This document shows, piece by piece, positions 19,106 to 49,619 of a DNA stretch of 64,000 nt. A program made the position numbers and the translations under genes. Within the stretch, counting starts at the first letter, position 1. Each line of letters begins with the position of its first letter. Source of the stretch: Rhodopseudomonas palustris. Lineage in GTDB: Bacteria; Pseudomonadota; Alphaproteobacteria; Rhizobiales; Xanthobacteraceae. Location of the stretch: the NCBI RefSeq assembly GCF_003591005.1, contig NZ_QYYD01000004.1, positions 124,001 through 188,000 on the forward strand, in the 5' to 3' direction. The notes under the pieces are model-generated. The model saw only the letters and a program-made list of their open reading frames with translations. It was not told the origin of the DNA and made no database searches.

Positions 19106-21352
19106 ATGTCAGGAATCGTTCTCTCGAACGCCGTTCGCCAGAATCTCTCTTCGCTTCAGGCCACGGCAGACCTGCTCGCCACCACCCAAAGCCGCCTCTC
19201 GACCGGCAAGAAGGTGAACTCGGCACTCGACAATCCGACCAACTTCTTCACCGCTGCCTCGCTCGACAACCGCGCCAGCGACATCAACAACCTGCTCGAT
19301 GGCATCGGCAATGGTGTGCAGATCTTGCAGGCTGCCAACACCGGCATCACGTCGCTGAGCAAGCTCGTGGACAGCGCCAAGTCGATCGCCAACCAGGCGC
19401 TGCAGACCACCGCTGGCTACACCACCAAGTCCAACGTCTCGACCACCATCAACGGCGCGACTTCGGACGACCTGCGTGGCACCACCAGCTACAGCTCGAC
19501 CTCGGCGCTGAGCAACGTGCTGTACTCGGGCGCGGCTGGCGGCACCACGGCGGCGACTTCGGCCAAGACTCTCGGCGGCGTGGCCGGCTCGCTGGTCGGC
19601 ACCGCGGTCAACGACACTGCGACGTCGCCCGCTGTGATCACTGCCGCGACCAAGCTCAACGACACCGGCGGCGCCAATCCGGCCCTTGGTACGGCGACCG
19701 TTGCCGACGGTGACTCGTTCACCGTGAACGGCAAGACCATCACCTTCAAGGCCGGCGCAGTGCCGACCACGGCTCCCTCCGGAACGTCGATCACCGGCAA
19801 CGTCGTCGTCGACACCACGGGCAATTCGACCATCTATATCGGCGCCAGCACGACCTCCTCGACCGCAACGGTCGGCGACGTGCTGCATGCGATCGATCTC
19901 GCCAGCGGCGTTGCGTACAACAACGCCGGCACCGTGACGGCCAACGCCGGCCAGACGCTGTCCAGCATCACGGCCGGTGCCGTCACGCTGAAGAGCTCGA
20001 CCGGTGCTGACCTGTCGGTCTCCGGCAAGGCCGACCTCCTCAAGTCGTTCGGTCTGACCAGCGCGGTCGGCGGTGGCACCACGACGGTGTCGGCGAACCG
20101 CACCACTGCGGCCTCGACCCTGGGCTCGCTGATCCAGGACAACTCGACGCTGACCGTCGATGGCAAGACCATCACCTTCAAGAATGCCCCGACCCCGGCG
20201 GCCTCCGCGACCCACACCGGCGTGTCCGGTGCGGTCGAGACCGACGGCAAGGGCAACTCGACGGTGTATCTGCAGGCCGCGACCGTCTCCGACGTGTTGA
20301 ACGCGATCGACCTCGCCACCGGTGTGCAGACCGCGACGCTGGACGCGGGCGGCGCCACCTTCGCGGCGGCGACCGGCCAGACCAAGTCGTCGATCAATAC
20401 CTCCGGCGCGCTGAACATCAGCACCGGCAGCAATGCCGATCTGTCGATCACCGCCGGTACCGGCAATGCGCTGTCGGCGCTCGGCCTCAGCGGCAACACC
20501 GGCACCGACCTGTCGTTCACGGCCGCCCGCACCACCAGCGCGGGTAATGTGTCGGGCAAGACCTTGACCTTCTCGTCGTTCAATGGCGGCTCGGCGGTCA
20601 ACGTCACCTTCGGCGACGGCAGCAATGGCACCGTGAAGACCCTGGCGCAGCTCAACACTGCGCTGGCGGCCAACAACATGGTGGCGGCGATCGACAACTC
20701 GACGGGCAAGCTGACGATCTCGACCTCCAACGACTATGCCTCGCACACCATGGGCGGCACGGACGGCGGCGTGATCGGCGGCACGTTGAAGGATACATTG
20801 TCGTTCTCGTCGGCTGCGGCGCCGGTCGCGGACGTCAATGCCCAGACCACCCGTGCGGGCCTGGTCAAGCAGTTCAACGACATCCTGGACCAGATCACCA
20901 CGACGGCTCAGGACGCTTCGTTCAACGGCGTCAACCTGCTCAACGGCGATACGCTGAAGCTGGTCTTCAACGAAACCGGCAAGTCGACGATTTCGATCCA
21001 GGGCGTCACCTTCAACCCGACCGGCCTCGGCCTGTCGAGCCTGACCTCCGGCACCGACTTCATCGACAACACGGCGACCAACGCCGTGCTGGCCAAGCTC
21101 GGCAACGCGACCACCGCGCTGCGCTCGCAGGCGTCGGCCTTCGGTTCGAACCTGTCGATCGTGCAGGCCCGTCAGGACTTCTCGAAGAACCTGATCAACG
21201 TGCTGCAGACCGGCTCGTCCAACCTCACGCTGGCCGACACCAACGAGGAGGCTGCCAACAGCCAGGCACTGTCGACCCGTCAGTCGATCGCGGTGTCCGC
21301 GCTGTCGCTGGCCAACCAGTCGCAGCAGAGCGTGCTGCAGCTGCTGCGCTGA
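19106..21352 (+). CDS. Flagellin 1 (giant, 748 residues)
   Basis: Flagellin builds the filament. The D0/D1 ends are well conserved: the N-terminal helices through about residue 110 (SLQATADLLATTQSRLSTGKK in part, DNPTNFFTA, INNLLDGI) and the C-terminal helix ending LANQSQQSVLQLLR. Between them lie about three beta-rich modules of the Flagellin_IN type, starting near residues 200, 338 and 482, each with a TVNGKTITFK-like strand, a DVLNAIDLA-like helix and a DLSI strand. This makes it far longer than the usual 270-500. It is 80%-like at its ends to flagellin 2 downstream by eye. A strong terminator follows. Confidence 0.95.
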   Translation: MSGIVLSNAVRQNLSSLQATADLLATTQSRLSTGKKVNSALDNPTNFFTAASLDNRASDINNLLDGIGNGVQILQAANTGITSLSKLVDSAKSIANQALQTTAGYTTKSNVSTTINGATSDDLRGTTSYSSTSALSNVLYSGAAGGTTAATSAKTLGGVAGSLVGTAVNDTATSPAVITAATKLNDTGGANPALGTATVADGDSFTVNGKTITFKAGAVPTTAPSGTSITGNVVVDTTGNSTIYIGASTTSSTATVGDVLHAIDLASGVAYNNAGTVTANAGQTLSSITAGAVTLKSSTGADLSVSGKADLLKSFGLTSAVGGGTTTVSANRTTAASTLGSLIQDNSTLTVDGKTITFKNAPTPAASATHTGVSGAVETDGKGNSTVYLQAATVSDVLNAIDLATGVQTATLDAGGATFAAATGQTKSSINTSGALNISTGSNADLSITAGTGNALSALGLSGNTGTDLSFTAARTTSAGNVSGKTLTFSSFNGGSAVNVTFGDGSNGTVKTLAQLNTALAANNMVAAIDNSTGKLTISTSNDYASHTMGGTDGGVIGGTLKDTLSFSSAAAPVADVNAQTTRAGLVKQFNDILDQITTTAQDASFNGVNLLNGDTLKLVFNETGKSTISIQGVTFNPTGLGLSSLTSGTDFIDNTATNAVLAKLGNATTALRSQASAFGSNLSIVQARQDFSKNLINVLQTGSSNLTLADTNEEAANSQALSTRQSIAVSALSLANQSQQSVLQLLR

Positions 21353-34694: not shown

Positions 34695-34740
34695 CGGTTC
34701 GCCTGAACGGCACGGCTCTTCTTGCAGGCGGATGCGGCCG

Positions 34741-35241
34741 ATGGCGGATTCAGAAAAACCCGAGGACGGCGCAGATGGCGCCGAAGGCGCTGCGTCGAAG
34801 AGCAAGAAGAAGCTGATCATCATCATCGCGGCAGCCGCGCTGGTGCTGGTCGGCGGCGGCGGAGGTGCGTGGTTCTTCATGTCCAAAGGGCACGACAAGG
34901 ACAAGCAGCACGCCGAGGCCGAGAAGGTGAAGCCGCCGAATTTCGTCGACGTGCCGGAGATCATGGTCAACCTCGCCGGCTCGCCGGGCGAGCGGGTGCA
35001 GTACCTCAAGGCCAAGATCGTGCTCGAAGTAAAAGACGACAAGCTCGCCGAGCAGATCAAGCCGACGATGCCGCGCATCACCGACCTGTTTCAGACCTAT
35101 CTGCGCGAACTGCGCTCGAACGATCTCAATGGCTCGGTCGGGATGTTTCGCATGAAGGAAGAACTGACCCGCCGGGTCAACGTCGCGATTGCACCTGCGC
35201 AGGTGAACGCGGTGCTGTTCAAGGAAGTGCTGGTGCAGTGA
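34741..35241 (+). CDS. fliL: Flagellar basal body-associated protein FliL
   Basis: 166 residues: a charged cytoplasmic start, one membrane segment (LIIIIAAAALVLVGGGGGAWFF in part) and a periplasmic domain. FliL sits at the stators and supports torque. ATG 34741 is preferred to 34732 because AGGCGG lies 10 bases before it. First gene of fliL-fliM-DUF6468-motE, 6 bases before fliM. Confidence 0.94.
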   Translation: MADSEKPEDGADGAEGAASKSKKKLIIIIAAAALVLVGGGGGAWFFMSKGHDKDKQHAEAEKVKPPNFVDVPEIMVNLAGSPGERVQYLKAKIVLEVKDDKLAEQIKPTMPRITDLFQTYLRELRSNDLNGSVGMFRMKEELTRRVNVAIAPAQVNAVLFKEVLVQ

Positions 35242-35247
35242 TCTGAC

Positions 35248-36450
35248 ATGGCTGGCCAGGACCAACTCGACCAAGACGCAATCGCCGCCCAGTGGGAAGC
35301 GTCGATGGCCTCGGAAGATCCCGAGGCCGCCGCCAAGGCTGCACAGGAAAACGAACTCACCGGGACCATGGCGGAGCAATGGGCCGCCATGGTCGACGAT
35401 GGCGGCCGCGATCTCGGCGGCGGCAAGAACGGCGGTGAGCGCGTGCTGTCGCAGGAGGAGATCGACAATCTCCTCGGCTTCAGCGTCGGTGAGGTACATC
35501 TCGACGAGAATTCCGGCATTCGCGCCATCATCGACTCGGCGATGGTGTCCTACGAGCGTCTGCCGATGCTCGAAATCGTGTTCGACCGCCTGGTGCGGCT
35601 GATGACGACGAGCCTGCGCAATTTCACCTCCGACAACGTCGAGGTCTCGCTCGACCGCATCACCTCGGTGCGGTTCGGCGACTATATGAATTCGATCCCG
35701 CTGCCTGCGGTGCTGTGCGTGTTCAAGGCCGAGGAGTGGCAGAATTTCGGGCTCGCCACCGTCGACTCCAGCCTGATCTATTCGATGATCGACGTGCTGC
35801 TCGGCGGCCGCCGCGGCCAGGCGTCGCTGCGCATCGAAGGGCGCCCCTACACCACGATCGAGACCAATCTGGTGAAGCGGCTGCTCGAAGTCGTGCTCGC
35901 CGACGCCGAACAGGCGTTCCGCCCGCTGTCGCCGGTAACGTTCTCGATCGACCGGCTGGAAACCAATCCGCGCTTCGCCGCCATCAGCCGGCCCGCCAAC
36001 GCCGCCATCCTGGTCCGCCTGCATATCGACATGGAAGACCGCGGCGGCAATATCGAACTGCTGCTGCCCTACGCCACGATCGAGCCGATCCGCGGCGTGC
36101 TGATGCAGATGTTCATGGGCGAGAAGTTCGGCCGTGACCCCGTCTGGGAAGGCCACCTCGCTACCGAAATCGGTCAGGCCGAGATCTCGATCGACGCGGT
36201 TTTGTACGAATCGGAAGTGCCGCTGAGACAGCTGATGGCGTTGCAGGTCGGCGATACCTTGCCGCTCGAACTACGCGCGGACGCGCTGGTCGCGGTTCGC
36301 TGTGGCAACGTCACGCTGACTGAAGGCCGGATGGGCCGCGTCGGTGACCGCGTCGCGATCCGCGTCACCAAACCACTCCGCAAGCCGGTCACGACCTACG
36401 CGATGTTCGAACGGACCGACGAGCAAAGCAAAATGATGGAGGCACAATGA
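35248..36450 (+). CDS. fliM: Flagellar motor switch protein FliM
   Basis: FliM is the middle C-ring protein that binds CheY-P. The CheY-binding motif LSQEEIDNLL is present but at residues 67-76, preceded by an acidic, Ala/Glu-rich extension, whereas in enterics it is at the very start. The central domain (SYERLPMLEIVFDRL) and the C-terminal SPOA domain (PLRQLMALQVGDTLPL) are complete. 400 residues. Overlaps the next gene by 4 bases (ATGA). Confidence 0.96.
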   Translation: MAGQDQLDQDAIAAQWEASMASEDPEAAAKAAQENELTGTMAEQWAAMVDDGGRDLGGGKNGGERVLSQEEIDNLLGFSVGEVHLDENSGIRAIIDSAMVSYERLPMLEIVFDRLVRLMTTSLRNFTSDNVEVSLDRITSVRFGDYMNSIPLPAVLCVFKAEEWQNFGLATVDSSLIYSMIDVLLGGRRGQASLRIEGRPYTTIETNLVKRLLEVVLADAEQAFRPLSPVTFSIDRLETNPRFAAISRPANAAILVRLHIDMEDRGGNIELLLPYATIEPIRGVLMQMFMGEKFGRDPVWEGHLATEIGQAEISIDAVLYESEVPLRQLMALQVGDTLPLELRADALVAVRCGNVTLTEGRMGRVGDRVAIRVTKPLRKPVTTYAMFERTDEQSKMMEAQ

Positions 36451-36881
36451 GCCATACCCTGGGACTCGTCATCGAAAGCCTCGTCGCCGTGCTGTTGCTG
36501 CTGACGATCGGCTACTGCTGGCTGCTCAACAAGCGGCTGCTGCGGCTGAAGGCCGACGAGCAGTCGCTGAAGGCGACGATCGGCGAACTGATCACCGTCA
36601 CCGAGATCGCCGAACGCGCGATCGGCGGGCTGAAGCTCACGGTGCGCGAGGTCAACGACAACCTCGGCCGCGACATCGCCGCGGCGAGCGCGATGTCCGA
36701 GAATCTCAAGAAGCAACTCGCCGAAGGCGACAACGTGCTGCGCCGGCTGTCCAAGATCGTGGCGGCGGCGCGGCCGTCCTCGGAGCAGCAGGACGCGCCG
36801 ACGCTGTCGGCGGCGCGGGCCAACGCAGCTGCGGCTGAAGCCTTCGCCGAGCGGCGACGACACACTGGCCTGGCTGCATGA
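36447..36881 (+). CDS. DUF6468-type membrane protein
   Basis: 144 residues: one N-terminal membrane segment (ESLVAVLLLLTIGYCWLL), then an extended coiled-coil-like helix to residue 105 and a polar tail. Proteins of this type sit between fliM and motE in many alphaproteobacteria. Function unknown; a structural motor role is suggested by place and by translational coupling (ATGA overlaps on both sides). Confidence 0.75.
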   Translation: MSHTLGLVIESLVAVLLLLTIGYCWLLNKRLLRLKADEQSLKATIGELITVTEIAERAIGGLKLTVREVNDNLGRDIAAASAMSENLKKQLAEGDNVLRRLSKIVAAARPSSEQQDAPTLSAARANAAAAEAFAERRRHTGLAA

Positions 36882-37654
36882 GCGCGCTCCGGGATATCCG
36901 CATCCTGCCGGTGGTGCTGGTCGCGATCCTCGGCCTCGCTGTGCTGAAGATCGCTGGCCTGTTGCTCGATGGCGGCTACGTGTTCGACTACGACCCGAAC
37001 GCGACCAAGCCGTCCTGGGCGCAGGCCAACCTGAACTACCCGGGTGGCGCCGCCAAGGCTGCAAATCCCGACCTGGCTTCCGATATTACCGGTTCGGTAC
37101 AAGCGCCGGCCAAAACAGAACAACCGAAGCCGGCCGTTGCGGCGCCGGAGGACGTCAAGCCGCCCGAGCCGCCGATGGAGCACCCGGCCGGCATCTCGCC
37201 GTCCGAGCGCGCGATCCTCGAGCGGCTGCAAGCGCGCCGCCAGGAGCTCGACGCCCGCGCCCGCGAAGTCGAAATTCGCGAGAGTCTGCTGAAGGCGGCC
37301 GAGAAGCGGATTGAATCCCGCGTCGAGGAGATGAAGGCGACCGAGGGCCAGATCGGCAAGGCCGCCGAGCAGAAGAGCGAAGCCGACGCTGCGCGTTTCA
37401 AGGGCATCATCACGATGTACGAGTCGATGAAGCCGAAGGACGCCGCCAAGATCTTCGATCGCCTGGAGATGCCAGTGCTGATCGAGATCGCGTCGCAAAT
37501 CGCGCCGCGCAAGATGTCCGACATTCTCGGGCTGATGACGCCGGAAGCCGCCGAAAAAGTCACGGTCGAGTTGGCGCGCCGCGCCAGTGGAAAGACCTCG
37601 GCGACCGCAGCCGCGTTGCCTAAAATCGAAGGTCGTCCTGTCCCGGCAAGGTAA
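36878..37654 (+). CDS. MotE-like protein with MgtE N-domain fold
   Basis: 258 residues: N-terminal membrane anchor (VVLVAILGLAVLKIAGLLL), Pro/Ala-rich linker, long coiled coil (about 105-165), then a helical domain (TMYESMKPKDAAKIFDRLEMPVLIEIA in outline, with KMSDILGLMTPEAAEKVT) like the MgtE N-domain. In Sinorhizobium, MotE is a periplasmic chaperone for the motility protein MotC. No MotC is visible; the next plus-strand gene encodes a large secreted protein that could be the client. ATGA overlap with the gene before. Confidence 0.78.
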   Translation: MSALRDIRILPVVLVAILGLAVLKIAGLLLDGGYVFDYDPNATKPSWAQANLNYPGGAAKAANPDLASDITGSVQAPAKTEQPKPAVAAPEDVKPPEPPMEHPAGISPSERAILERLQARRQELDARAREVEIRESLLKAAEKRIESRVEEMKATEGQIGKAAEQKSEADAARFKGIITMYESMKPKDAAKIFDRLEMPVLIEIASQIAPRKMSDILGLMTPEAAEKVTVELARRASGKTSATAAALPKIEGRPVPAR

Positions 37655-37696
37655 CTGATTGCTGATTGCGTATGGCCTGGATCGCCCAAGACTTAG

Positions 37697-38026
37697 TCAG
37701 TCGGAGATCCGCGTCAGCACTGCCTTGAAACCGAGCGTGGGCGCTTCCGCCGCGGTGCCTTCGACTTGGGCAAAATCGCCAATCGACGAACCGTGGAAAT
37801 CGACTCGTACTTCGTCGACGCCGAACACCGATGCCACGTTCGGATCGTTGGTGTGCCGACGGCTCATGATCTTGCCGCGGATCTGGCCACCATCTTGCTC
37901 GTAACTGCCGACATAGGCGAATGCCGAACTGCCGCCGCGGAGCTTTCCATCGTCGGCAAATACCACGCCGGTGGCTCTTCGACGCGCCGTCTCAAATTCG
38001 ACTTTGTACAATCCCTTCAACAGCAT
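37697..38026 (-). CDS. GrlR-like small protein
   Basis: 109 residues from ATG 38026. LKGLYKVEFETARRRATGVVFADDGKLRGGSSAFAYVGSY in outline is the start of the GrlR beta-barrel family; GrlR itself restrains the activator GrlA of a type III secretion system in enteric pathogens. In rhizobial relatives such proteins are of unknown role. It lies antisense between motE and the 1226-residue protein gene, with no partner resembling GrlA. Transfer is possible. Confidence 0.6.
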   Translation of the reverse strand: MLLKGLYKVEFETARRRATGVVFADDGKLRGGSSAFAYVGSYEQDGGQIRGKIMSRRHTNDPNVASVFGVDEVRVDFHGSSIGDFAQVEGTAAEAPTLGFKAVLTRISD

Positions 38027-38374
38027 GACTAGACCGGTCCCCAATTGAACGGCTGATGAGAAGTCTCGCGTGTATCGGTGCAGAAATGTGATGGTGCGTC
38101 CCGCCGCAGGTCTTACTACAGAAATCTGGATTAGCCGACCTAATTAAAACGGATGGTTGCATCGTGACCGGCGCAACCATTGTGGTGGTATCGGCTGTGG
38201 CGCGTCTGCGTGAGCGCGGGCGGGTGATGGTTAAACCAACGTTAACGGCTTCCGTGGTGTAGTGGCGAGGGAATGCCTGCACGGGGAACCGCGCGGGCGG
38301 CGGTGCATCGGATAACGCAACAGGGGCGGATTCGGTTCGCCCGCCACAACAGGGTCGTTGACCGGAAGACACCG
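38027..38374. promoter_or_regulatory. 348-base control region with a perfect CtrA box
   Basis: TTAAACCAACGTTAA at 38231-38245 is an exact TTAA-N7-TTAA. It lies 130 bases before the gene for the 1226-residue protein. No gene is seen in the region. Confidence 0.68.
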
Positions 38375-41300
38375 ATGGCGCGGATGGCTGCCGTTGCAGA
38401 CTGGTCGGGAGCGTTCTGCTGGCGCCTCGTGAAAGTCTGCCTCGCATTTGGGCTGGCTCTGGCCGTCGCCCTCTCGGCGCAGCCGGCGGCGGCACAACCC
38501 GTGCGCGGCGAGGCGAGCTTCGACGCCAGCGGCGGCTACGGCCGGCTGCTGTTCACGCTCGCCGAGGATGTCGAATCCGATGTCGTCATGGCCGGCCTGA
38601 TCGTGGTGATCCGGTTCAAGCGGCCGGTCGATATTCCGATCGACCGGCTGACGGAGTCCGGACGCGATTACATCGGCTCGGCGCGGCTCGATCCGGATGG
38701 CTCCGCTGTGCGGTTGGCCCTGCTGCGCAAGTTCACCGTCAACCCCATGGCCGCCGGCGAACGGCTGTATGTTGACCTGCTACCGGAGAATTGGGCAGGC
38801 GCGCCGCCGAGCGTGCCGCAGGAGGTGGTGAAGGCGCTGGCCGAGCGAGCTCGCGCTGCGGAACGGGCGCTACGCGCGCAACAGGCGAGGGCCGACGTCA
38901 AGAAGCGTCCGCCGATCCGCGTGCGCGCGTCGATGCAGCCGACTTTCGTGCGCTACGTGTTCGAAGTGCCGCCGGGTGTCGAGGTATCGTCGACGCTGAG
39001 TGAGAAGAAGTTGACGGTGCGGTTCAATACCGGCCTCAATTTCGATCTCGCCGACGCGCAGCTCGCGGGCGCATCGAATGTCGGGGCGATCAGCCAGAAG
39101 GCCGACGGCAACGGCTCCAGCGTCGACTTCGCGCTGATCGGCGGCGCCGACGTGCGCTCGTTCCGCGAAGACAAGAGTTTTGTTGTCGACGTCAGCTTCC
39201 AGCCGCGGGAAGGCGAGTCGAACAAGAAGAGCGACGCCGCCCTGGTGCTGCCGGAGATCGGCAAGCTGGAAGCGGCGGCGAAGCCCGAGACTGGAAAGCC
39301 TGAAGCTGCCAGACCCGAAGCAGCCAAACCTGAAGCTGCGAAGCCTGTCGCCAAGCCTGAAGACAAATCGGAGATCAAACCGCTTACAAGGACCGAGCCA
39401 GCGGTGGTCGCTGCGCAGGCGACGATCCCTCCGTCGCCTGCGGGGCCTCCCGTGCGTGTCAGCGATACGCCCGCTGCGCCGGCGGCCACGCCCGTCGCTG
39501 TGGTGGCAGCCGCCGGGTCCGAGCCCGTCACGGTGCCTGTCACGACTCCTGCCGCGCCGCCTCCGGCAGCGCCGGAATCTGCACCCGCGATGCCCAAGCC
39601 GGCTGCGACCGCGGCGCGTCCAGTTGAGGCGCGGCGTACCACGGACGGGCTGCAGTTCGATCTCTCCTTCGCCGCGCCGATGCCGGTGGCGCTGTTCCGC
39701 CGCGGCGAGATGCTGTGGCTGGTCCTCGACAGCACCACGCCGTTCGATCTCGCCGCGATCCGGCGCGAAGGCGGCGGCATCGTCGGCGACGTCAGCCGCG
39801 TCGGGCTGCCGAACGGGCAGGCGATCCGCATCCGGCTGATTCGCCCACAACTCGCGACGCTGAGCGATGACGACGGCTCGGGGCGATCCTGGTCGATCAC
39901 GCTGGCCGATTCCGGCCGCGCGGCGCCGCGGCCGCTCAGCACCGTGCGCAACATCGCCGACCCCAGTCGCGCCACCGTCAGCATCGCGCTCAGCGGGGTC
40001 GGCCGACTGCATCGCCTGATCGATCCTGAAGCCGGCGATGTGCTCTCGGTGGTAACCGCGCTGCCGCCGCCCCGCGGCTTCATCAAGCGGCAGAGCTTCG
40101 TCGAGTTCAATCTGCTGGAATCGCTGCACGGCGTGGTGATCGAACTCAAATCCGACGAAGTGACAGTTGAGACCGCGGCCGAAGCGGTGGTGGTATCGCG
40201 GCCGGGCGGGCTGACGCTGTCGTCGGCCGAGCCCACCGGGCAGGCCGGCTCGGCCACCGAACGGCCGTTCTTCGATGTGACGCAATGGTCGAAGGATCAG
40301 GAAGGCCGATACCTGCCGGCGCTCGATGCGCGGATCAATGCGCTGTCGCGCGCGACCGGTGACGATCGCTTGCCGGCGCGGCTCGATTTGGCGCGGTTCT
40401 ACATGGCCCGCGGCATGTATCAGGAGGCGAAGGGCGCGCTCGATCTGGCGCTGCTCGGCGCCAATCCCGGCCAGGAAGACGCCGCCACGATGATCGGTCA
40501 TGCCGCTGCGGCCGCGCTGATGGATCGGCCGGAGCAGACGCTGAAGGACGTCGCCAACCCGGCGATCGCCTCGACCTACGAGGCGCAGATGTGGAAGGGC
40601 GTCGCGCTGGCGCGCCAGGGCAAATGGGCCGAAGCGCGCGAGAAGCTGAAGTCGGTGCAACTCGCCGTGACGGCGCTGCCACTCGACCTGCAACGTGAGG
40701 TGCTGAAGTCGGCGATGCGCGCCTCGCTCGAAGTGCGCGATTACTCCGGCGCCGCCAAGATCAGCAGCGATTTCGATCTGGTCGGCGTGCCGCCGGCGAT
40801 GGCGCCGCAACTGGCGATGATGCGCGGCCGGCTCGACGAGGCGCTCGGCCGCGATCAGGAGGCGCTGCGGCGCTACAAGGAAGCGATGGCCTCGCCCGAT
40901 CGGCAGGCCGAAAGCGAAGCCAAGTTCCGCGACATTGTGCTGCGCTCAAGGCGCGGCGAGCTATCGCCGGAGGAGGCGCTGCCGGAGCTTGAGCGGCTGT
41001 CGATGACCTGGCGCGGCGACGATCTCGAAGTGCGTACCCAGCAACTGCTGTCGAAGCTGTACGCCAGTGCCGGCCGCTATCGCGACTCGTTGATGGCAGC
41101 GCGGATCGCGACGCAGCTCGCGCCGAACTCCGACGCCGCACGGCAGGGGCAGGACGACAGCCGCGCACTGTTCACGCAGATGTATATCGGCAACAAGGGC
41201 GACGACATCCCGCCGATCGAGGCGCTGGCGACCTTCTACGAATTCCGCGAACTGACGCCGATCGGCCGCCGCGGCGACGAGATGATCCGAAGACTGTCCG

Positions 41301-42055
41301 ATCGGCTGGTCGCGGTCGATCTGCTCGACCAGGCCAGCGAACTGCTGCAGTACCAGGTCGACAAGCGGCTCGACGGCGCGGCGCGGGCGCAGGTCGCCGC
41401 GCGTCTGGCGATGGTGTATCTGATGAACCGCAAGCCCGACCGCGCCATCGCGGCGCTGCATTCGTCGCGGATCGCCGACCTGGCCGGCGAATTGCGCCAG
41501 CAGCGGCTGCTGATCGAGGCGCGGGCGCAGAGCGACATCGGCCGGCACGACCTCGCGCTCGACATCATCAGCAATATCGGCGGCCGCGAGGCGATCCGGC
41601 TGCGCTCGGATATCTATTGGGCGGCGCGGCGCTGGCGAGAATCCTCCGAGCAGATCGAACTGTATCTCGGCGATCGCTGGAAGGATTTTACACCGCTGTC
41701 GCCCGCCGAGAAGAGCGACGTCATCCGTGCCGTGATCGGCTACGCGCTGGCCGAAGACGCGCTCGGCCTTGGCCGCTTCCGCGAGAAGTTTGCGCCGCTG
41801 ATGACCGACCCGGCGGATCTAACCGCCTTCGACATCGCGAGCAAACCGTCCTCCGGCGACAGCGCCGCCTTCGCGGCGATCGCCAAGATGGCGGCGAGCG
41901 TCGATACGCTGGAAGGCTTCCTGCGCGAGATGAAGCAGCGCTTCCCGGACGCCAGCGCGCGTGCCACCCCGCCGGGTGCGGATATGACGTCGACGGGTTC
42001 GGTGCCGGCTGCAGCGCCGGCCGAGAAGGTGCGCGTCATCAAGATGGCGCGGTAA
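38375..42055 (+). CDS. Large secreted protein: AMIN-like beta domains, Pro/Ala linker, TPR-like helical repeats
   Basis: 1226 residues. A signal peptide ends near residue 40 (ALSAQPAAAQ). About residues 44-300 contain two similar beta-rich segments; a KPEAAKPEA-type linker with many Pro follows (about 300-430), then a third beta segment (about 430-530) and, from about 620 to 1180, helical TPR-like repeats (YMARGMYQEAKGALDLAL, and GRYRDSLMAARIATQLAPNS). This suggests a periplasmic scaffold that may bind the cell wall. Function unknown. Its CtrA box and position after motE link it to motility. ATG 38375 has GGAAG 7 bases upstream; 38273 is a less likely start. Confidence 0.85.
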   Translation: MARMAAVADWSGAFCWRLVKVCLAFGLALAVALSAQPAAAQPVRGEASFDASGGYGRLLFTLAEDVESDVVMAGLIVVIRFKRPVDIPIDRLTESGRDYIGSARLDPDGSAVRLALLRKFTVNPMAAGERLYVDLLPENWAGAPPSVPQEVVKALAERARAAERALRAQQARADVKKRPPIRVRASMQPTFVRYVFEVPPGVEVSSTLSEKKLTVRFNTGLNFDLADAQLAGASNVGAISQKADGNGSSVDFALIGGADVRSFREDKSFVVDVSFQPREGESNKKSDAALVLPEIGKLEAAAKPETGKPEAARPEAAKPEAAKPVAKPEDKSEIKPLTRTEPAVVAAQATIPPSPAGPPVRVSDTPAAPAATPVAVVAAAGSEPVTVPVTTPAAPPPAAPESAPAMPKPAATAARPVEARRTTDGLQFDLSFAAPMPVALFRRGEMLWLVLDSTTPFDLAAIRREGGGIVGDVSRVGLPNGQAIRIRLIRPQLATLSDDDGSGRSWSITLADSGRAAPRPLSTVRNIADPSRATVSIALSGVGRLHRLIDPEAGDVLSVVTALPPPRGFIKRQSFVEFNLLESLHGVVIELKSDEVTVETAAEAVVVSRPGGLTLSSAEPTGQAGSATERPFFDVTQWSKDQEGRYLPALDARINALSRATGDDRLPARLDLARFYMARGMYQEAKGALDLALLGANPGQEDAATMIGHAAAAALMDRPEQTLKDVANPAIASTYEAQMWKGVALARQGKWAEAREKLKSVQLAVTALPLDLQREVLKSAMRASLEVRDYSGAAKISSDFDLVGVPPAMAPQLAMMRGRLDEALGRDQEALRRYKEAMASPDRQAESEAKFRDIVLRSRRGELSPEEALPELERLSMTWRGDDLEVRTQQLLSKLYASAGRYRDSLMAARIATQLAPNSDAARQGQDDSRALFTQMYIGNKGDDIPPIEALATFYEFRELTPIGRRGDEMIRRLSDRLVAVDLLDQASELLQYQVDKRLDGAARAQVAARLAMVYLMNRKPDRAIAALHSSRIADLAGELRQQRLLIEARAQSDIGRHDLALDIISNIGGREAIRLRSDIYWAARRWRESSEQIELYLGDRWKDFTPLSPAEKSDVIRAVIGYALAEDALGLGRFREKFAPLMTDPADLTAFDIASKPSSGDSAAFAAIAKMAASVDTLEGFLREMKQRFPDASARATPPGADMTSTGSVPAAAPAEKVRVIKMAR

Positions 42056-42065
42056 CCCCAACGCG

Positions 42066-42170
42066 GTCATTCCGGGGCACGCGCAACGCGCGCGAACCCG
42101 GACTCCAGAAGTTGTTATGCGCGGTTGAGATTCCGGGTTCGCTCCGCTGCGCTACGCGCCCTGGAATGAC
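42066..42170. repeat. Palindromic intergenic repeat, 'cattccggg' type, copy 1
   Basis: About 105 bases, from GTCATTCCGGGGC to the inverted GGAATGAC. Inside, CGCGCGAACCCGGA pairs roughly with TTCCGGGTTCGC. About 90% identical by eye to the copy 92 bases further on. Together they fill most of the 412-base gap before marR. Confidence 0.88.
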
Positions 42171-42261
42171 CCGGGGAGGGGCTAGGCGCAGGCCGATAGG
42201 CGGAACCGATAAGCGCGGTGCCATCCGCCATCGCCGTTCAATCTTTACACAGCCTCTCGTT

Positions 42262-42368
42262 CGTCATTCCGGGGCGCGCGCAACGCGCGCGAACCCGGAA
42301 TATCGAAGTTGTTTTGCGCGGTTGAGATTCCGGCTTCGCTCCGCTGCACTACGCGCCCCGGAGTGACT
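42262..42368. repeat. Palindromic intergenic repeat, 'cattccggg' type, copy 2
   Basis: Direct repeat of 42066-42170 in the same orientation. It lies at the left border of the catabolic island. Confidence 0.88.
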
Positions 42369-42467
42369 CGGGGAGAGGCTGAGCCATTCTTGTCAGGCGC
42401 CATGCCCCTTGGATTTTTCGCGATTCTCGGCAAATCAGGATGGTTGAGAGTCTCAAGGAGCGATCGC

Positions 42468-42944
42468 GTGGCGAAGAAAGTGAAACAGAAGGCCAAAAAC
42501 CTGTTTCGGCGGCCGGGCTTTCTGGTGCGTCGGCTGCACCAGATCTACGTCGCGATCTATCTCAAGGAGTGCGAGCGCTTCGGGACAACGCCGGTGCAGA
42601 CCAGCATCATGCAGGTGCTGCTCGACAAGCCTGGGCTCGATCAGGTGGCGCTTGCTGCCGAAATCGGCATGGATCGAACGACCACCTCAAACGTGCTGAC
42701 CCGTCTCGAGAAGCGGGGGATCATCCGGCGCGAAGAAGCTGAAAAGGATCGACGTGTCAGGCTGGCTTTTCTCACCGAGGAAGGCAGCGCAATGCTCTCC
42801 GATATGCAGGGGGCTTTAGACAAAGCTCACAGCCGTCTGATCGCCCCGCTGCCGGAGAGCGAGCGAGAGACCTTCATCGAGCACCTTGCCCTGCTGGTTG
42901 AATCCAACAACGACGCAGGGCGCACCGTGCTGCGCAATCTATGA
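42468..42944 (+). CDS. MarR-family regulator of the UbiD island
   Basis: 158 residues with the MarR winged helix (QVALAAEIGMDRTTTSNVLTRLEKRG, in pieces) and the wing RREEAEKDRRVRLAFLTEEG. Proteins of this family often bind aromatic acids or their CoA esters and repress the matching catabolic genes. The start is taken as GTG 42468, because AAGGAG lies exactly 7 bases before it; the ATG at 42402 has no such site. Two near-identical palindromes follow the gene, before ubiD, and are its likely operators. Confidence 0.85.
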   Translation: MAKKVKQKAKNLFRRPGFLVRRLHQIYVAIYLKECERFGTTPVQTSIMQVLLDKPGLDQVALAAEIGMDRTTTSNVLTRLEKRGIIRREEAEKDRRVRLAFLTEEGSAMLSDMQGALDKAHSRLIAPLPESERETFIEHLALLVESNNDAGRTVLRNL

Positions 42945-42984
42945 GCGCCTGCTGGTGAATGTTTGACGTTGTACGTCCGAAATC

Positions 42985-43000
42985 CATCAGCATACTGATG
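42985..43000. promoter_or_regulatory. Palindromic operator 1 (MarR-type)
   Basis: CATCAGCATACTGATG: 6-base arms CATCAG/CTGATG. Its core differs from operator 2 by one base (C for T). Centre at 42992.5, 69 bases from operator 2. Confidence 0.7.
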
Positions 43001-43035
43001 AGAGAGTGGCTCGGAGAGCTTGAGACTGCCCGCGG

Positions 43036-43067
43036 TTCACGCCGCGGACAGATCGTCAGTATACTGA
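43036..43067 (+). promoter_or_regulatory. Promoter of ubiD operon with operator 2 over the -10 box
   Basis: TTCACG (43036-43041), 18-base spacer, TATACT (43060-43065). The perfect palindrome TCAGTATACTGA (43056-43067) covers the -10 box, so a bound repressor would block RNA polymerase. The ribosome site GGAGG follows at 43074-43078. Confidence 0.65.
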
Positions 43068-43085
43068 TAATATGGAGGCTTGCGC

Positions 43086-44483
43086 TTGGACGAAACGACG
43101 TCAGTTCAAAGCTTGCGCGGCTTTCTCGACATGGTCCGCACGCGCTTCCCTGAAGAGTATCTGCAGATCCGCGATCGCGTGAATCCCCGCCTCGTGTCCA
43201 CCGCCATGGTCCTCGAACTCGATCGCGCGGGTCGTAGTCCCGTCGTGATGTTCGACAAGCTCGGCGATTCAGGCATGGCCTGCGTCACTAACATCGCCGC
43301 CAACCGCAAGCTGCTTGGCGCCTGCCTTGGCGTGGGAGCTTGCGAGTTGCCCACGGTGTTTCGCGAGCGCAGCCAGCGGCCGATCCCATGCGAGCTCGTC
43401 CAACGCGGCGAATGGGACGATGTCGTGATCGAGGGGGATGAGGTCGATCTCACCAAGCTGCCGATCCCGCATCAGTTCACCGTCGACGCCGCGCCTTACA
43501 TCACCGCCGGCCAGGTCACGGCGCGCGACCCGGTCACCGGTATCGACACCACCGGCTTCCATCGCCTGATGCTCGCCGGCAGGAACCGGCTGGGGATCTC
43601 GCTGCATTCGCGTCGCCGGATGTACGAGTATCACCGCCGCGCCGAACAGCGCGGCCACTCGCTTCCCGCCGCGATCACCATCGGCGTACATCCGCTGCAC
43701 TACATGGGTTCGATGACCTACGCGTACGGCGCCGACGTCCGCAAATACGAGATTATCGGGGCGCTGTTCGGACAGCCGTATCGGCTCGCCAGATGCGGCG
43801 TCGGCGATCTCGAGGCGCCGGCCGGCGCCGAGATGGTGATCGAGGGAGAGATCCTCGCTGGCGTCCACGAACCGGAGGGGCCGTTCGGTGAGTTCACAGG
43901 CTACGCCTCCTATCGCAGCACCCAGAATGTGTTCGTGGCTCATCGCATCCGGATGCGTCGTGACGCCTTCTTCCACAGCATCACGGCGGGGATGTCGAAG
44001 GATCACATCCTGATCTCCTCCGTGACGCGCGAGGGCGAAATTCTCAACGCGCTGCGCCGAAACCTGCCGAACGTCACAGCGGTGCATGTCCCGCACTCGA
44101 CCTGCGGCGCGTTCCTGGCCGTAGTGGCGATGAAGAAGACCGCGGCCGGCGAGCCCCAGATGGCCGTCATGGCGACGTTGGGGACCGAACTCTACACCAA
44201 ATACGTGATCGTCGTGGACGACGACGTCGACATTTTCGATCTCAACGATGTGTTCTGGGCGATCGCGACCCGGGTTCAGGCGGAGAAGGACATCTTCTTC
44301 ATCCCTGGCGCGAAGGGCGCGGTCATCGATCCGAGTTCGGATCCGCAGAGCTTCACCGTCACCAAGATGGGCATCGACGCGACCCGCCCCAGCGGCCGGG
44401 AATTTGCAGAGCGATTGGTCGTGCCCGACGAGGCGCGCGACCGCGCACGGGCCATCCTCAGCGCTGCGGGCATTACCTTGTAA
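43086..44483 (+). CDS. UbiD-family prenyl-FMN-dependent decarboxylase
   Basis: 465 residues from TTG 43086; GGAGG ends 7 bases before it, while the TTG at 43080 is too close. Family signatures: ITAGQVTARDP (Arg147), the EGPFGEFTGY motif with Glu264 and Glu269 (the E-x4-E catalytic pair), and DDDVDIFDLNDVFWAIATR near the end. Such enzymes reversibly decarboxylate aromatic, heteroaromatic or unsaturated acids with prenylated FMN. Thr155 stands where the family usually has the metal-binding Asn (TGxxN). The neighbours suggest catabolism rather than ubiquinone synthesis. Substrate unknown. Confidence 0.92.
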   Translation: MDETTSVQSLRGFLDMVRTRFPEEYLQIRDRVNPRLVSTAMVLELDRAGRSPVVMFDKLGDSGMACVTNIAANRKLLGACLGVGACELPTVFRERSQRPIPCELVQRGEWDDVVIEGDEVDLTKLPIPHQFTVDAAPYITAGQVTARDPVTGIDTTGFHRLMLAGRNRLGISLHSRRRMYEYHRRAEQRGHSLPAAITIGVHPLHYMGSMTYAYGADVRKYEIIGALFGQPYRLARCGVGDLEAPAGAEMVIEGEILAGVHEPEGPFGEFTGYASYRSTQNVFVAHRIRMRRDAFFHSITAGMSKDHILISSVTREGEILNALRRNLPNVTAVHVPHSTCGAFLAVVAMKKTAAGEPQMAVMATLGTELYTKYVIVVDDDVDIFDLNDVFWAIATRVQAEKDIFFIPGAKGAVIDPSSDPQSFTVTKMGIDATRPSGREFAERLVVPDEARDRARAILSAAGITL

Positions 44484-44537
44484 AGGCCCCGCGCTGTGCG
44501 CAACCAACGACGTAGTGGTAGCAAAGGAGACGAGCCG

Positions 44538-45533
44538 ATGAATCGATTGACCGCTTTCTGCTTCAGCGTGGCGCTTTCAACCTTGACCGGCCTGTCAGCA
44601 GCCTCGGCACAGCAGCCCGTCAAGCTCCGCTTCGCCACGGTGGGCGTCGGCTCGGCCTGGTACAACTATGGCGCGGGCTTCGCCGATCTCGTGACCAAGC
44701 AGCTTCCCAAAGGGTCGAGCATCGATGTCCTCCCGATTGCTGGCGGCGTCGGCAACATCAAGCTGATCCAGAGCGGCGAGGCCGAACTCGGGATCAGCTT
44801 CGCCGTGACGTCGGCCGAGGGCTGCGGCGGTTTCGGCGCGTTCTCGCAAAAGCAGGACAAGGTGATGGGCCTGATCGGCGGGCTCGATACTTATTACTTC
44901 GGCACCTTTGTCACCAAAGCGTCCGGGGTCACGTCCTGGAACGACATCGTCGCCGGCAAGAATAAGTTTCATCTGCTGACCACCCAGGCCGGCGGCACCG
45001 GCGAGCAGGGCGTGCGTCAGGTTCTCCAGCTGCTGGGATCGAGCAAGGAGAGCGTCGCACAGAAAGGCGGGATGATCGAACCGTCGACCCGTTCGGGAAC
45101 GGCCGAGATCATCAAGGACGGCAATGCCGGCGGCTGGGCGCATGTGGTGACGAAGGGCCATCCCGCGGCCACGCAGATCACCACCGTCAACGACATGATC
45201 ATGCTGCCGCTGCCCGACGACGTGATCAAGGGAATGACGGAAAAGTTCGGCTGGGCTGAAGTCACCGTTCCGGCCAACACTTTCAAAGGCCAGACTGAGC
45301 CGGTGAAGACGGTTCGCGCCGCGTCCAACATCCTGATCGCGTCGAGCGTCTCCGACGACGCGGCCTACACGATCGCCAAGACGCTGGTCGAGAGCGCCGC
45401 GGCGATGCCGCGGATCCACGCAGCGTTGGCCGATTTCGATCCCAAGCTCGCCGCGGATCCCGCCCTCAACGGCAACTGTCCGATCCATCCGGGCGCGGCG
45501 AAATACTATCGTGAAGCCGGGCTGATGAAGTAA
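44538..45533 (+). CDS. TAXI-family TRAP transporter solute-binding protein
   Basis: 331 residues: signal peptide cleaved after about residue 24 (LSAASAQQ) and a periplasmic binding fold of the TAXI type (LRFATVGVGSAWYNYGAGFADLV, IAGGVGNIKLIQSGEAELG). It captures the substrate for the TRAP permease encoded next. AAGGAGA lies 8 bases before the ATG. Known TAXI substrates are dicarboxylates and amino acids such as glutamate; the cargo here is probably the acid handled by the UbiD enzyme (inference). Confidence 0.92.
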   Translation: MNRLTAFCFSVALSTLTGLSAASAQQPVKLRFATVGVGSAWYNYGAGFADLVTKQLPKGSSIDVLPIAGGVGNIKLIQSGEAELGISFAVTSAEGCGGFGAFSQKQDKVMGLIGGLDTYYFGTFVTKASGVTSWNDIVAGKNKFHLLTTQAGGTGEQGVRQVLQLLGSSKESVAQKGGMIEPSTRSGTAEIIKDGNAGGWAHVVTKGHPAATQITTVNDMIMLPLPDDVIKGMTEKFGWAEVTVPANTFKGQTEPVKTVRAASNILIASSVSDDAAYTIAKTLVESAAAMPRIHAALADFDPKLAADPALNGNCPIHPGAAKYYREAGLMK

Positions 45534-45578
45534 CCGCCGTCACTTCCTCCAACCTGATCGACAGTCGAGAGCGCGAAG

Positions 45579-47498
45579 ATGACGCTGTCTGCACGCCATG
45601 CACGGCTTCTGTTGGGTCTGATCGCGATTGCGCTCGCGATCGTGCAGTTCATCCCGGTGTTCGCCAGCCGGGCGATGTACGAATTGTCGCTGCTCGCGGC
45701 TCACGTCGGCGCAACGACGTCCATCGCCTATCTGATGGTCGGCGTTCGCGGCCGACGCAAGGAAGGGGACGACGTCCCGCTGATCGACGTGTTGTGCGCC
45801 GTCCTCGCGCTCGCCTCAGCGAGCTATTTCTACATGCAGGGCGCGCGCGTGGCCGAGCGGATCGAGGGCGTCGATCCGGTCTACGCGGCGGACTACGTGT
45901 TCGGCATCGTGCTGATCCTGCTGCTGCTCGAAGCGGCGCGGCGAATTGCGGGCACCGTGCTGATGTCGCTCGCGGTGCTGTTCATCCTCTACGTGTTTCT
46001 GGGACCCTATCTGCCCGCTCCGTTCGACAACAGGGGCATGTCGCTGAAGCGCTTTATCGATCTTCAGCTGCTGTCCGGGCAGGGAATCTTCGGTACGCCG
46101 ATCTCGGCCTCGGCCAATATGGTGTTCTACTTCGTCATCGTCGGTGCGTTCCTGGAGCGCTCCGGCGCCGGCCGCCTGTTCGTCGATCTCGCCTATTGCG
46201 CGACCGGCCGCGCCTGGGGCGGAGCCGCCAAGGCGAGTATCGTGTCGTCGGGCTTGTTCGGCACGGTGTCTGGCAGCGCCGTCGCCAACGTGCTGATGAC
46301 CGGCGTGGTCACTATTCCGTTGATGCGCCGCACCGGCTTCAGCCGCAATTTTGCCGGTGCGACGGAAGCGACCGCCTCGACGGGAGGCCAGCTCGCACCG
46401 CCGGTGATGGGCGCGGCCGCGTTCATCCTGGCGGATATCGTCGGCGTCACCTATGGGACGGTCGCCTATGCGGCCATCGTGCCGGCGGTGCTGTTCTATC
46501 TGTCGCTCTACGTTCTGGTCGATGCCTATTCGCGGCGCCACGGCCTGGTGCCGACCCGTGATCTTCCGCTTGCGGAATCCTGGCGGGGCTTGAAGGAGCG
46601 CTGGCATGTCCTGCTGCCGCTCGCGCTGATGGTGTATTTGCTGACGTCGCAATATTCGCTGATGCGTGTCGGTGCGATCACCGCGGTCGCGATCGTCATC
46701 GTCAGTTGGCTTCGCTCGACGACGCGGCTCAAGCCGGCCGATATCTACGCCGCTTTGGCGGCCGGAGGGCGCAGCGCCGCCGAGGTGGCGATCCCGTCCG
46801 CCGTCGCCGGGATCATCGTCGGGGTCCTGGTGCACACCGGGATGGCGTTGCATCTGGAGCGCTGGCTGCTGGAGATCGCGGGCAATTCGCTGTTCGTCTC
46901 GCTGATCGGCGCGATGCTGCTGACTTTGGTGTTCGGCATGGGTATGCCCACCGCCGCCGCCTATCTGGTCGCCGCCATCCTGGTCGGCCCTGCATTGCAG
47001 AATCTCGGCGTACCGGCGCTCGAGGCTCACCTGTTCATCTTCTACTTCGCGGTTCTGTCGATGGTGACGCCGCCCGTGGCGCTGGCCGCCTATGCGGCCG
47101 CGGGGGTGAGCGGTGGATCGCTGTGGACCACGGGGCTGATCGCGTTCGGTCTCGCCGTCCCGGGCTTCATCATTCCGTTCGCCTTCGTGGCGGATCCTTC
47201 GCTGCTGCTGCAAGGCACTGCGCTGGATAATTTCCGCACCGTCGGCACCGCCGTGATCGGAGTTTGTGCGACCGCGGCGGCCTCGGGCGGGTTCGCGCTG
47301 GGACGGCTTTCGCTGGCGATGCGGGGCATCCTCTTCGCCGGCGGCGTGCTGCTGATCGTGCCCAACGTGACGGCCGAGATTATCGGCTTCGTCCTGCTGG
47401 CGCTGGTCGGGCTCTGGCAGATGAGACCGGCCGTCCGCTCGCGCTCGGCGGCGCCGCCGGCAACGCCGTCGCAACCTTCCGAAGGAACGGTGATCTGA
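45579..47498 (+). CDS. TRAP transporter fused 4TM/12TM permease
   Basis: 639 residues with some 16-18 membrane segments, combining the small (DctQ-like) and large (DctM-like) subunits, as is typical for TAXI systems. Motifs: SSGLFGTVSGSAVANVLMTG, TGGQLAPPVMGAAAFI and GMGMPTAAAYLVAA, the DctM-type signature regions. Sodium-coupled uptake is expected from the family. Its TGA overlaps the ATG of the amidohydrolase (TGATG). Confidence 0.92.
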   Translation: MTLSARHARLLLGLIAIALAIVQFIPVFASRAMYELSLLAAHVGATTSIAYLMVGVRGRRKEGDDVPLIDVLCAVLALASASYFYMQGARVAERIEGVDPVYAADYVFGIVLILLLLEAARRIAGTVLMSLAVLFILYVFLGPYLPAPFDNRGMSLKRFIDLQLLSGQGIFGTPISASANMVFYFVIVGAFLERSGAGRLFVDLAYCATGRAWGGAAKASIVSSGLFGTVSGSAVANVLMTGVVTIPLMRRTGFSRNFAGATEATASTGGQLAPPVMGAAAFILADIVGVTYGTVAYAAIVPAVLFYLSLYVLVDAYSRRHGLVPTRDLPLAESWRGLKERWHVLLPLALMVYLLTSQYSLMRVGAITAVAIVIVSWLRSTTRLKPADIYAALAAGGRSAAEVAIPSAVAGIIVGVLVHTGMALHLERWLLEIAGNSLFVSLIGAMLLTLVFGMGMPTAAAYLVAAILVGPALQNLGVPALEAHLFIFYFAVLSMVTPPVALAAYAAAGVSGGSLWTTGLIAFGLAVPGFIIPFAFVADPSLLLQGTALDNFRTVGTAVIGVCATAAASGGFALGRLSLAMRGILFAGGVLLIVPNVTAEIIGFVLLALVGLWQMRPAVRSRSAAPPATPSQPSEGTVI

Positions 47499-49000
47499 TG
47501 CGTACGAAGATCGAGGCCGGTTGGATCGTCGGGCACGACAAGGGGCGGCATACGCTGTTGCGCGACGCCGTGCTGGTGTTCGAGGGCAATCGTATCGTCT
47601 ATGTGGGAAAAGCCTTCGAGGGGCATGTCGACAGCACCATCGATGCGAAGGGCAAGCTGGTGACGCCCGGCTTCATCGATACCCACGTGCATTCCGGTCA
47701 TCGCGCCTCGCACCGGCTGATTTCCGACACCGGCCGGCCGATGTATTACGGCCAGCCGTTTCTCGAAATCAGCGTGCCCAAGGAAGGCAAGACGGTCAGC
47801 GGCGATCCCCGCTATCTGAAGCACGGCGATCCGGGTGCCGAAGCGGCGTTCGCGCTCAACGCCACCTTCACGGTGGCCGAATTGCTGCGCAACGGCGTCA
47901 CCACCTTCGTGGAGTTCGGCAGTCAGTTGAAAGTGCAGGATGCGCTGCTGGCGGAAGTGACGCGGCTCGGCACCCGCGCCTATCTGGCCCCCGGCTATGA
48001 TTGCGGTCGCTGGGTCGGCGACGAGCAGGGCCGCCTCAAGCGCATCCGCGACGATCAGCTCGGCATCGACGGCCTCGATGTCGCAGTCGACTGGATCGCC
48101 CGCAACGACGGTGCCGCCGAAGGGCGCGTCCGAGGGATCCTGGTGCCGCGCGAAGTCGAGACTGCGAGCCTCGAACTTTTGCGACGGACCCGCGAGCTCG
48201 CCGACGAACTCAATCTGCCGATGGCTACCCACGCCGCCTATAGCGTGATCGAATTCCACGAGACCGTGCGTGAATACATGATGACGCCGATCGAGCTGCT
48301 CGACAGCCTCGGCATGCTGCGGCCGACGCTGAACATCGGCCACGGCAACTTCATCTCGGACAACGCCAACCTCAACTTCGCCCGCAAGAACGATCTGCGC
48401 CTGATGGGCGACGCCGGCGTCAGCATCTCGCATTGCCCGATCAACATCGTGCGGCGCTCGCGCACGCTGGATAGTTGGCAGCGCTATCGCGACGCCGGCG
48501 TGAACATCTCGATCGGCTCGGATACGTATCCGCGCGACATGATCATGAACATGCGGACGGCGTCCTATCTGGGCAAGATCATGAGCGAGACCTACCTCGC
48601 CGCGACTGCCGGCGAAGCGCTCGAGGCCGCAACGTTGGGCGGCGCCATGTCGGTTGGCCGCGACGATCTCGGACGGCTGGCGCCGGGAGCGCTCGCCGAT
48701 ATCGTGATCATCGATCTGTCCGGCCGCAATTCGCTGCGCTACGGCCCGGTACGCGACCCGGTCAAGAGTCTCGTCGAGTGCGGCGTGGGTGACGATGTCG
48801 ACACGGTGATTGTTGACGGCGTGGTGCGGATGGAAAACGGCATCATTCCTGGAATCAATTTCGCCGAGCTGAACCAGCGCGCCCAAGCGGCGGGGGAGGC
48901 CGTGTGGGACAGCCTGCCGCAGTGGGATCCGCTGGGCCGCACCGCGGAGCAGGCCTGTCCCTGGTGCTATCCATCCACGTTCGAATGCGAACCTCTCTGA
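47498..49000 (+). CDS. Amidohydrolase, ATZ/TRZ-like (metal-dependent deaminase/hydrolase)
   Basis: 500 residues. All metal and catalytic ligands of the superfamily are visible: His63 and His65 (DTHVH), His245 (MATHA), His282 (GHGNF), His312 (SISHCP) and Asp342 (GSDTYP). The C-terminal GALADIVIIDL closes the composite beta domain. The ATZ/TRZ group removes amino or other groups from N-heterocycles, which hints that the substrate may be nitrogenous. Translationally coupled to the permease; 7 bases precede ubiX. Confidence 0.88.
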   Translation: MRTKIEAGWIVGHDKGRHTLLRDAVLVFEGNRIVYVGKAFEGHVDSTIDAKGKLVTPGFIDTHVHSGHRASHRLISDTGRPMYYGQPFLEISVPKEGKTVSGDPRYLKHGDPGAEAAFALNATFTVAELLRNGVTTFVEFGSQLKVQDALLAEVTRLGTRAYLAPGYDCGRWVGDEQGRLKRIRDDQLGIDGLDVAVDWIARNDGAAEGRVRGILVPREVETASLELLRRTRELADELNLPMATHAAYSVIEFHETVREYMMTPIELLDSLGMLRPTLNIGHGNFISDNANLNFARKNDLRLMGDAGVSISHCPINIVRRSRTLDSWQRYRDAGVNISIGSDTYPRDMIMNMRTASYLGKIMSETYLAATAGEALEAATLGGAMSVGRDDLGRLAPGALADIVIIDLSGRNSLRYGPVRDPVKSLVECGVGDDVDTVIVDGVVRMENGIIPGINFAELNQRAQAAGEAVWDSLPQWDPLGRTAEQACPWCYPSTFECEPL

Positions 49001-49007
49001 GGCGTTG

Positions 49008-49619
49008 ATGGCAACTGCATCAATGCCCATTGTCGTCGGTATCAGCGGCGCGTCGGGCATCGTTCTCGGGATCCGGTTACTTGACGTTCTCGCAACGCTA
49101 GGGATCGAGAGCCATCTGGTGATGACGCGCTCGGCGCAGGTGACGCTCGCTCATGAAACTGATCTGAAGGTGTCCGACGTTCGTGCGAGGGCCAGCGTTG
49201 TGCATCAGGTCGACGACATCGGTGCGTCAATCTCGAGCGGCTCGTTCCCCACGGCGGGAATGATCATCGCCCCGTGTTCAATCCGCTCGATGTCGGAGAT
49301 CGCCAGCGGCGTGACGTCCTCGCTGCTGACGCGGGCGGCGGACGTGGTGCTGAAGGAGCGGCGTCGTCTGGTCCTTCTGGTCCGGGAAACGCCGTTGCAC
49401 CTCGGTCACCTGCGCACCATGACTGCGCTGACCGAGATGGGGGCTATCGTGATGCCGCCGGTGCCGGCGTTCTACATCAGGCCGCAGAGCATCGACGAGA
49501 TCGTCGACCATACGCTGAGCCGGACACTCGATCTGTTTGGAATCGATGCCGGTCTCTCCCGGCGCTGGAGCGGAGCGAAGATGGACGTCGTCGCCAAACC
49601 AGCCGACTCCGCCGAATGA
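49008..49619 (+). CDS. ubiX: Flavin prenyltransferase UbiX
   Basis: 203 residues. VVGISGASGIVLGIRLLDVL is the FMN-binding start; PCSIRSMSEIASGVTSSLLTRAADVVLKERRRLVLLVRETPLH in outline is the signature second half. UbiX attaches a dimethylallyl group to FMN, making the cofactor of UbiD. Its presence in the operon supports a dedicated supply. ATG 49008 has TGAGG 6 bases upstream. Its stop overlaps the next start (ATGA). Confidence 0.94.
   Translation: MATASMPIVVGISGASGIVLGIRLLDVLATLGIESHLVMTRSAQVTLAHETDLKVSDVRARASVVHQVDDIGASISSGSFPTAGMIIAPCSIRSMSEIASGVTSSLLTRAADVVLKERRRLVLLVRETPLHLGHLRTMTALTEMGAIVMPPVPAFYIRPQSIDEIVDHTLSRTLDLFGIDAGLSRRWSGAKMDVVAKPADSAE

Follow-up and report, generated by a model that had tools for sequence, protein, structure and literature searches.

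In the 64,000-nt stretch of the Rhodopseudomonas palustris genome analysed here (the window), a gene for a MotE-like protein is followed by a gene for a secreted protein of 1226 residues, which raises the question of what this large protein does and what MotE does for it. The initial annotation of this DNA suggested that it might be an undescribed periplasmic scaffold of the flagellar motor, served by MotE as its chaperone. Our analysis indicates that the protein is highly likely to be a periplasmic spoke of the motor, of the MotK/FssB type and partnered with MotE.

The conserved part of the locus opens with a tight plus-strand run of four genes, comprising fliL (34732..35241; NCBIfam FliL, PRK12785, E 8e-76), fliM (35248..36450; TIGR01397, E 4e-91), which encodes the sole FliM of the genome, a pflI-like gene carrying DUF6468 (36447..36881; PF20072, E 5e-22, above cut-off), and the motE-like gene (36878..37654, 258 aa), whose reading frame overlaps that of the DUF6468 gene by 4 bases. 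The next gene on the plus strand, 3′ of motE, is the motK/fssB-type gene (38375..42055), for which an alternative upstream ATG at 38273 would extend the product from 1226 to 1260 aa. The initial annotation had located both genes at these positions. A minus-strand ORF between them (37697..38044), absent from that annotation, resembles GrlR (PF16518, E 0.009, below cut-off). It is retained in 11 of the 13 genus relatives examined and was detected in none of the remaining members of the order; we regard it as an insertion that is not part of the motor. Immediately 3′ of motK, a 118-nt repeat is present in two copies that are 90 % alike (42066-42183 and 42263-42380). The interval between motK and fliP (42309-49619) contains genes for a MarR-type regulator and a flavoprotein and, as read by eye, for a UbiD-like decarboxylase and a TRAP transporter. 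This interval has the appearance of an insertion, because the CtrA box of the flgB-like gene lies about 10 kb from motK here, compared with about 2 kb in several genus relatives. Elsewhere in the window, two genes (19106-21352 and 21756-24422) encode very large flagellins, of 748 and 888 aa, that carry DUF1522 inserts. On contigs C9 and C10 of genome G000, outside the flagellar cluster of the window, a MotB plug domain was found in two genes.

The MotE-like protein has, as read by eye, a putative N-terminal membrane segment (about 36905-36973) and a coiled coil (about 37205-37396); a putative MgtE_N/ARM-like end (37418-37561) follows, and all three are encoded on the plus strand. Its Pfam match to MgtE_N (E 0.0037) and its NCBIfam match to the FlbB collar family (E 1.2e-6) both fall below the curated cut-offs, and a motE-like gene occupies the orthologous position at all loci of the order that were examined. 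The predicted identity of this protein as MotE is weak by Pfam, better by NCBIfam, and best supported by conserved gene order.

The arrangement as a whole is similarly conserved. In a survey of relatives drawn from whole genomes, for which the order-wide search used the shorter C-terminal part of the large protein as query, the order fliL-fliM-pflI-motE-motK was kept at all loci examined within the order. The same gene order occurs in about 33 of the 40 families sampled across the class, with several of the remaining loci being cut by contig ends. Class-wide homologs gave HMM E-values from 1e-17 (a fragment) to 1e-300; a further, weaker set of loci added two with a homolog and several in which none was detected. 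Within the order, 34 of the 35 sampled genomes that carry a polar-type (strong-match) FliM also have a motK-type gene, the single exception being a draft that is 83 % complete. None of the 25 genomes without a polar-type FliM has one (22 lack FliM altogether, and in 3 the only FliM is divergent). This co-occurrence corresponds to a Fisher p of 5e-16, a value that ignores kinship, though most rows represent one genome per family. In a genome with both FliM types, the single motK-type copy lies beside the polar-type FliM. Searches of plasmids returned only a few distant matches (Erythrobacter, Sphingobium, Azospirillum and Paroceanicella). A Sphingomonadales-like locus (L131:5496-7463) encodes a form of the protein in which no AMIN part can be recognised, and has a transglutaminase-like gene on the opposite strand between motE and motK; proteins similar to this form occur on the Erythrobacter and Sphingobium plasmids.

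The domain architecture of the large protein was examined with an AlphaFold2 model of the mature protein, computed with 46 homologs as input (mean pLDDT 84). Residues 1-40 (38375..38494, plus strand, as are all features that follow) form a predicted Sec signal peptide, read from the sequence as a hydrophobic segment and an A-x-A site (..SAQPAAA|Q) that are kept in orthologs, in agreement with the secreted protein initially annotated. In the model, this is followed by AMIN domain 1 (residues 43-137; 38501..38785), a joining helix (residues 149-177; 38819..38905) and AMIN domain 2 (residues 181-274; 38915..39196). A Pro/Ala-rich linker (residues 279-411; 39209..39607), with 27 prolines and 33 alanines in 134 residues, is predicted to be disordered (pLDDT 31-43) and leads to an AMIN-type domain 3 (residues 418-511; 39626..39907) that matches AMIN 2 by hhalign with a probability of 98.6 % (E 1e-15). 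Profile comparison indicates that domains 1, 2 and 3 are mutually homologous. A fourth beta domain (residues 523-608; 39941..40198) has a confidently predicted, conserved fold that is not AMIN by sequence, as hhalign detected no profile similarity between it and the AMIN domains tested, AMIN 1 included. The remainder of the protein is a TPR solenoid of about 30 helices (residues 635-1196; 40277..41962; pLDDT mostly >90) that is also supported by matches to TPR structures in the PDB. Conservation across the family peaks in the distal repeats, at residues 941-1020 (..IPPIEALATFYEFRELTPIGRRGDEMIRRL..; 41195..41434), where the scores are 0.62-0.66 compared with 0.38-0.46 in other folded parts. We propose that this patch might form the surface that faces MotE.

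Searches of Pfam and NCBIfam with the window protein alone returned no domain above cut-off and only sub-threshold TPR matches in Pfam. Among 40 homologs, Pfam recognised TPR_2 in 22, the AMIN-like family PF24837 in 11 and AMIN (PF11741) in 3; these matches and the fold model bear out the AMIN-like and TPR-like content that had been read from the sequence. Foldseek comparison of the model with 350,542 PDB chains gave as its top match 9hmf_K, a periplasmic flagellar scaffold protein of Campylobacter jejuni (E 6e-10 over 891 columns), which is presumably PflA, judging from its length (773 residues fit PflA). When the N-terminal half was used alone, the best match was PilQ (E 5e-5), followed by AmiC and PilQ with weak E-values; published work on MotK has relied on the same templates. 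PilQ (E 3e-4) also came up, along with many TPR proteins, when PDB sequences were searched by profile. The TPR part on its own proves little, because TPR folds match many unrelated proteins. A second look with VIA-align returned generic TPR proteins, and PflA was not among the matches listed, a result that carries no weight because a single domain took up the whole list.

A closer connection emerged from comparison with MotK. The Rhodobacteraceae locus L132 has the order fliL-pflI-motE-motA-motK that has been published for Cereibacter sphaeroides. In a 2024 study, BLAST did not link MotK to the proteins that Caulobacteraceae encode in the same place (PMC10954123). We compared the profile of the window family with that of 20 aligned Rhodobacteraceae MotK proteins, a set that does not include C. 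sphaeroides MotK or CC_2058 themselves, and obtained a co-linear match with a probability of 99.9 and an E-value of 1.8e-31, whereas a reversed profile used as a control gave an E-value of 0.09. When extended, the alignment spans 755 columns, and the single AMIN domain of MotK then pairs with AMIN 2 in the window family. Consistent with this register, hhalign comparison of that domain with AMIN 2 gave a probability of 99.2 % (E 3e-19), and with AMIN 1 an E-value of 2e-14. On the basis of the profile match, the extended alignment and the reversed control, the window family and Rhodobacteraceae MotK constitute one family. The presence of three homologous AMIN domains, compared with one in Rhodobacteraceae MotK, is a new detail.

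AMIN domains are also found in amidases and PilQ, and TPRs are generic, as would be expected if the product were a general envelope protein, related to peptidoglycan or to pili, whose gene sits in a flagellar cluster by chance. Such a protein would have to accommodate the strict co-occurrence with polar-type FliM, the class-wide gene order, the homology to MotK and the paralysis seen in Caulobacter when the gene at this position is deleted, and we therefore consider this explanation highly improbable. Homology, gene order, fold and co-occurrence together indicate that the protein is very probably a motor scaffold.

The scaffold partnered with MotE that the initial annotation envisaged is thus upheld, but not its description as new to the literature, since family members have been described as FssB/CC_2058 (PMC7885107) and MotK (PMC10954123), and structural kinship with PflA has been noted (PMC11870540, PMC13023049). 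By description, FssB of Caulobacter crescentus shares with the window protein a gene located directly after motE (CC_2059), a Sec signal and TPRs (PMC7885107), and an AMIN-like N-terminus has been reported for it (PMC10954123). MotK of the C. sphaeroides Fla2 system is likewise secreted, has an AMIN domain followed by TPRs, and is encoded beside motE in a cluster governed by a CtrA box; unlike the window protein, it has 652 aa and one AMIN domain, and motA intervenes between motE and motK. PflA of C. jejuni consists of a beta-sandwich, a linker and 16 TPRs (PMC12222027), an arrangement of N-terminal AMIN-like beta-sandwich, linker and TPR superhelix similar to that predicted here. It differs in having one beta-sandwich rather than three AMIN-type domains and a fourth beta domain, and in working with PflB. 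MotC of Sinorhizobium meliloti is also a periplasmic TPR partner of MotE that is required for rotation (PMC13023049), although by description it is mainly TPR, in contrast to the tandem AMIN domains of the window protein. The initial annotation had remarked that no MotC is seen in the window, which is consistent with MotK standing in the place of MotC. Reading of the ORFs in the lateral-type cluster of genome G016 did not reveal MotC there.

Studies of these relatives also bear on function. Mutants of C. sphaeroides in motK or motE carry flagella yet are paralysed, and MotK and MotE are periplasmic proteins that bind each other and MotB2 and are found at the flagellated pole (PMC10954123). Deletion of CC_2058 (fssB) in Caulobacter leaves cells paralysed although filaments are present, as does deletion of motB (PMC7885107). 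In Campylobacter, PflA spokes dock on dimers of FlgY and hold the stators (PMC11870540, PMC12222027). By homology, the MotE of the window should correspond to the E-ring and its MotK-type protein to the spoke.

The role of MotE itself has been viewed in two ways. In the older view it is a chaperone, as in the initial annotation. If it acted only in this way, accompanying the large protein across the periplasm without being part of the motor, as has been proposed for MotE and MotC in Sinorhizobium, this would be in keeping with observations in S. meliloti, where deletion of motE destabilises MotC, as summarised in a 2026 review that itself prefers a structural ring for MotE (PMC13023049). In C. 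sphaeroides, however, the dependence runs in the opposite direction, with MotE being degraded in the absence of MotK and MotK remaining stable in the absence of MotE, and a MotE-sfGFP fusion reaches the flagellated pole even without MotK (PMC10954123). The MotE of the window, moreover, resembles the collar protein FlbB and has a putative N-terminal membrane segment. A role as chaperone only is accordingly doubtful and seems unlikely to us. Because MotE of C. sphaeroides needs MotK for its stability and MotE groups with the E-ring proteins FlgY and FlbB, it is more likely a structural subunit of the E-ring that carries the scaffold.

With MotE as a ring subunit, the following mechanism can be envisaged. 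The MotK-type protein would be exported by the Sec pathway, and its distal TPRs might bind MotE dimers that encircle the MS ring as a ring of their own, from which the TPR solenoid would extend outward to form the spoke. At the opposite end, the AMIN domains could anchor the spoke to peptidoglycan or to adjacent scaffold components, for example FliL. The stators (MotA/MotB) would be recruited or unplugged by this scaffold, and its loss should therefore leave filaments that do not turn.

The region 5′ of motK contains a further conserved element. The perfect CtrA box that had been annotated ahead of the gene is present at 38231..38246 on the plus strand (TTAAACCAACGTTAAC, TTAA-ACCAACG-TTAAC), about 130 bases 5′ of the motK ATG. 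The pattern TTAA-N7-TTAA occurs four times in the window, compared with an expectation of 0.03, with the remaining perfect boxes located at 21526 and 21537 before a flagellin gene and at 52207 before the flgB-like gene. The boxes at 21526 and 21537 overlap, and the flagellin gene that they precede is the second of the two large ones (21756-24422). Across the genome, the 16-mer TTAA-N7-TTAAC is found 28 times, compared with 10 for a reversed-pattern control, an excess of only about threefold, and a single site is therefore weak evidence. Comparison among relatives is more informative. TTAA-N7-TTAA lies just 5′ of motK in 18 of 22 relatives from the order (19 of 23 loci when the window is counted), and the spacers of the conserved boxes differ. 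Within a fixed interval of -300 to +30, counted from an automatically chosen start, the box is present in 17 of 23 loci, whereas 300 simulated runs gave a mean of 0.06 and a maximum of 2. No box was found near motK in 29 loci from other alphaproteobacterial orders. This distribution, which is also a new detail, indicates from conservation in the same place that the box belongs to motK and is characteristic of the order.

Given that the box sits between motK and the divergent GrlR-like gene, it might instead serve the latter. The box nevertheless persists before motK in relatives where a GrlR-like gene was not detected (L046, L047, L049, L051, L052 and L058), and we rejected the GrlR-like gene as its owner, an assignment that we judge very unlikely. 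As the promoter of motK, the box would give this gene, in its home order, its own connection to the cell-cycle regulator CtrA. In C. sphaeroides, by comparison, the CtrA box lies before fliL2 (PMC10954123) rather than directly before motK.

A tentative extension, which we think possible but on balance doubtful, is that the enlarged spoke of this order, with its three AMIN domains, long Pro/Ala linker and CtrA promoter, provides for cell-cycle-timed supply and a multi-point hold on the cell wall. If so, the cell cycle would set when the scaffold is supplied, and hence when the stators engage, independently of the fliL-motE genes, and more than one attachment site would anchor the motor in the wall. 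More broadly, the profile comparison unites Rhodobacterales MotK with large proteins of other alphaproteobacterial orders that had been reported as unlike it by BLAST, and places an uncharacterised 1226-aa protein from a lineage of soil bacteria and phototrophs in a known motor-scaffold family. With this locus one can test whether the plan of E-ring and spokes known from Campylobacter operates across the Alphaproteobacteria.
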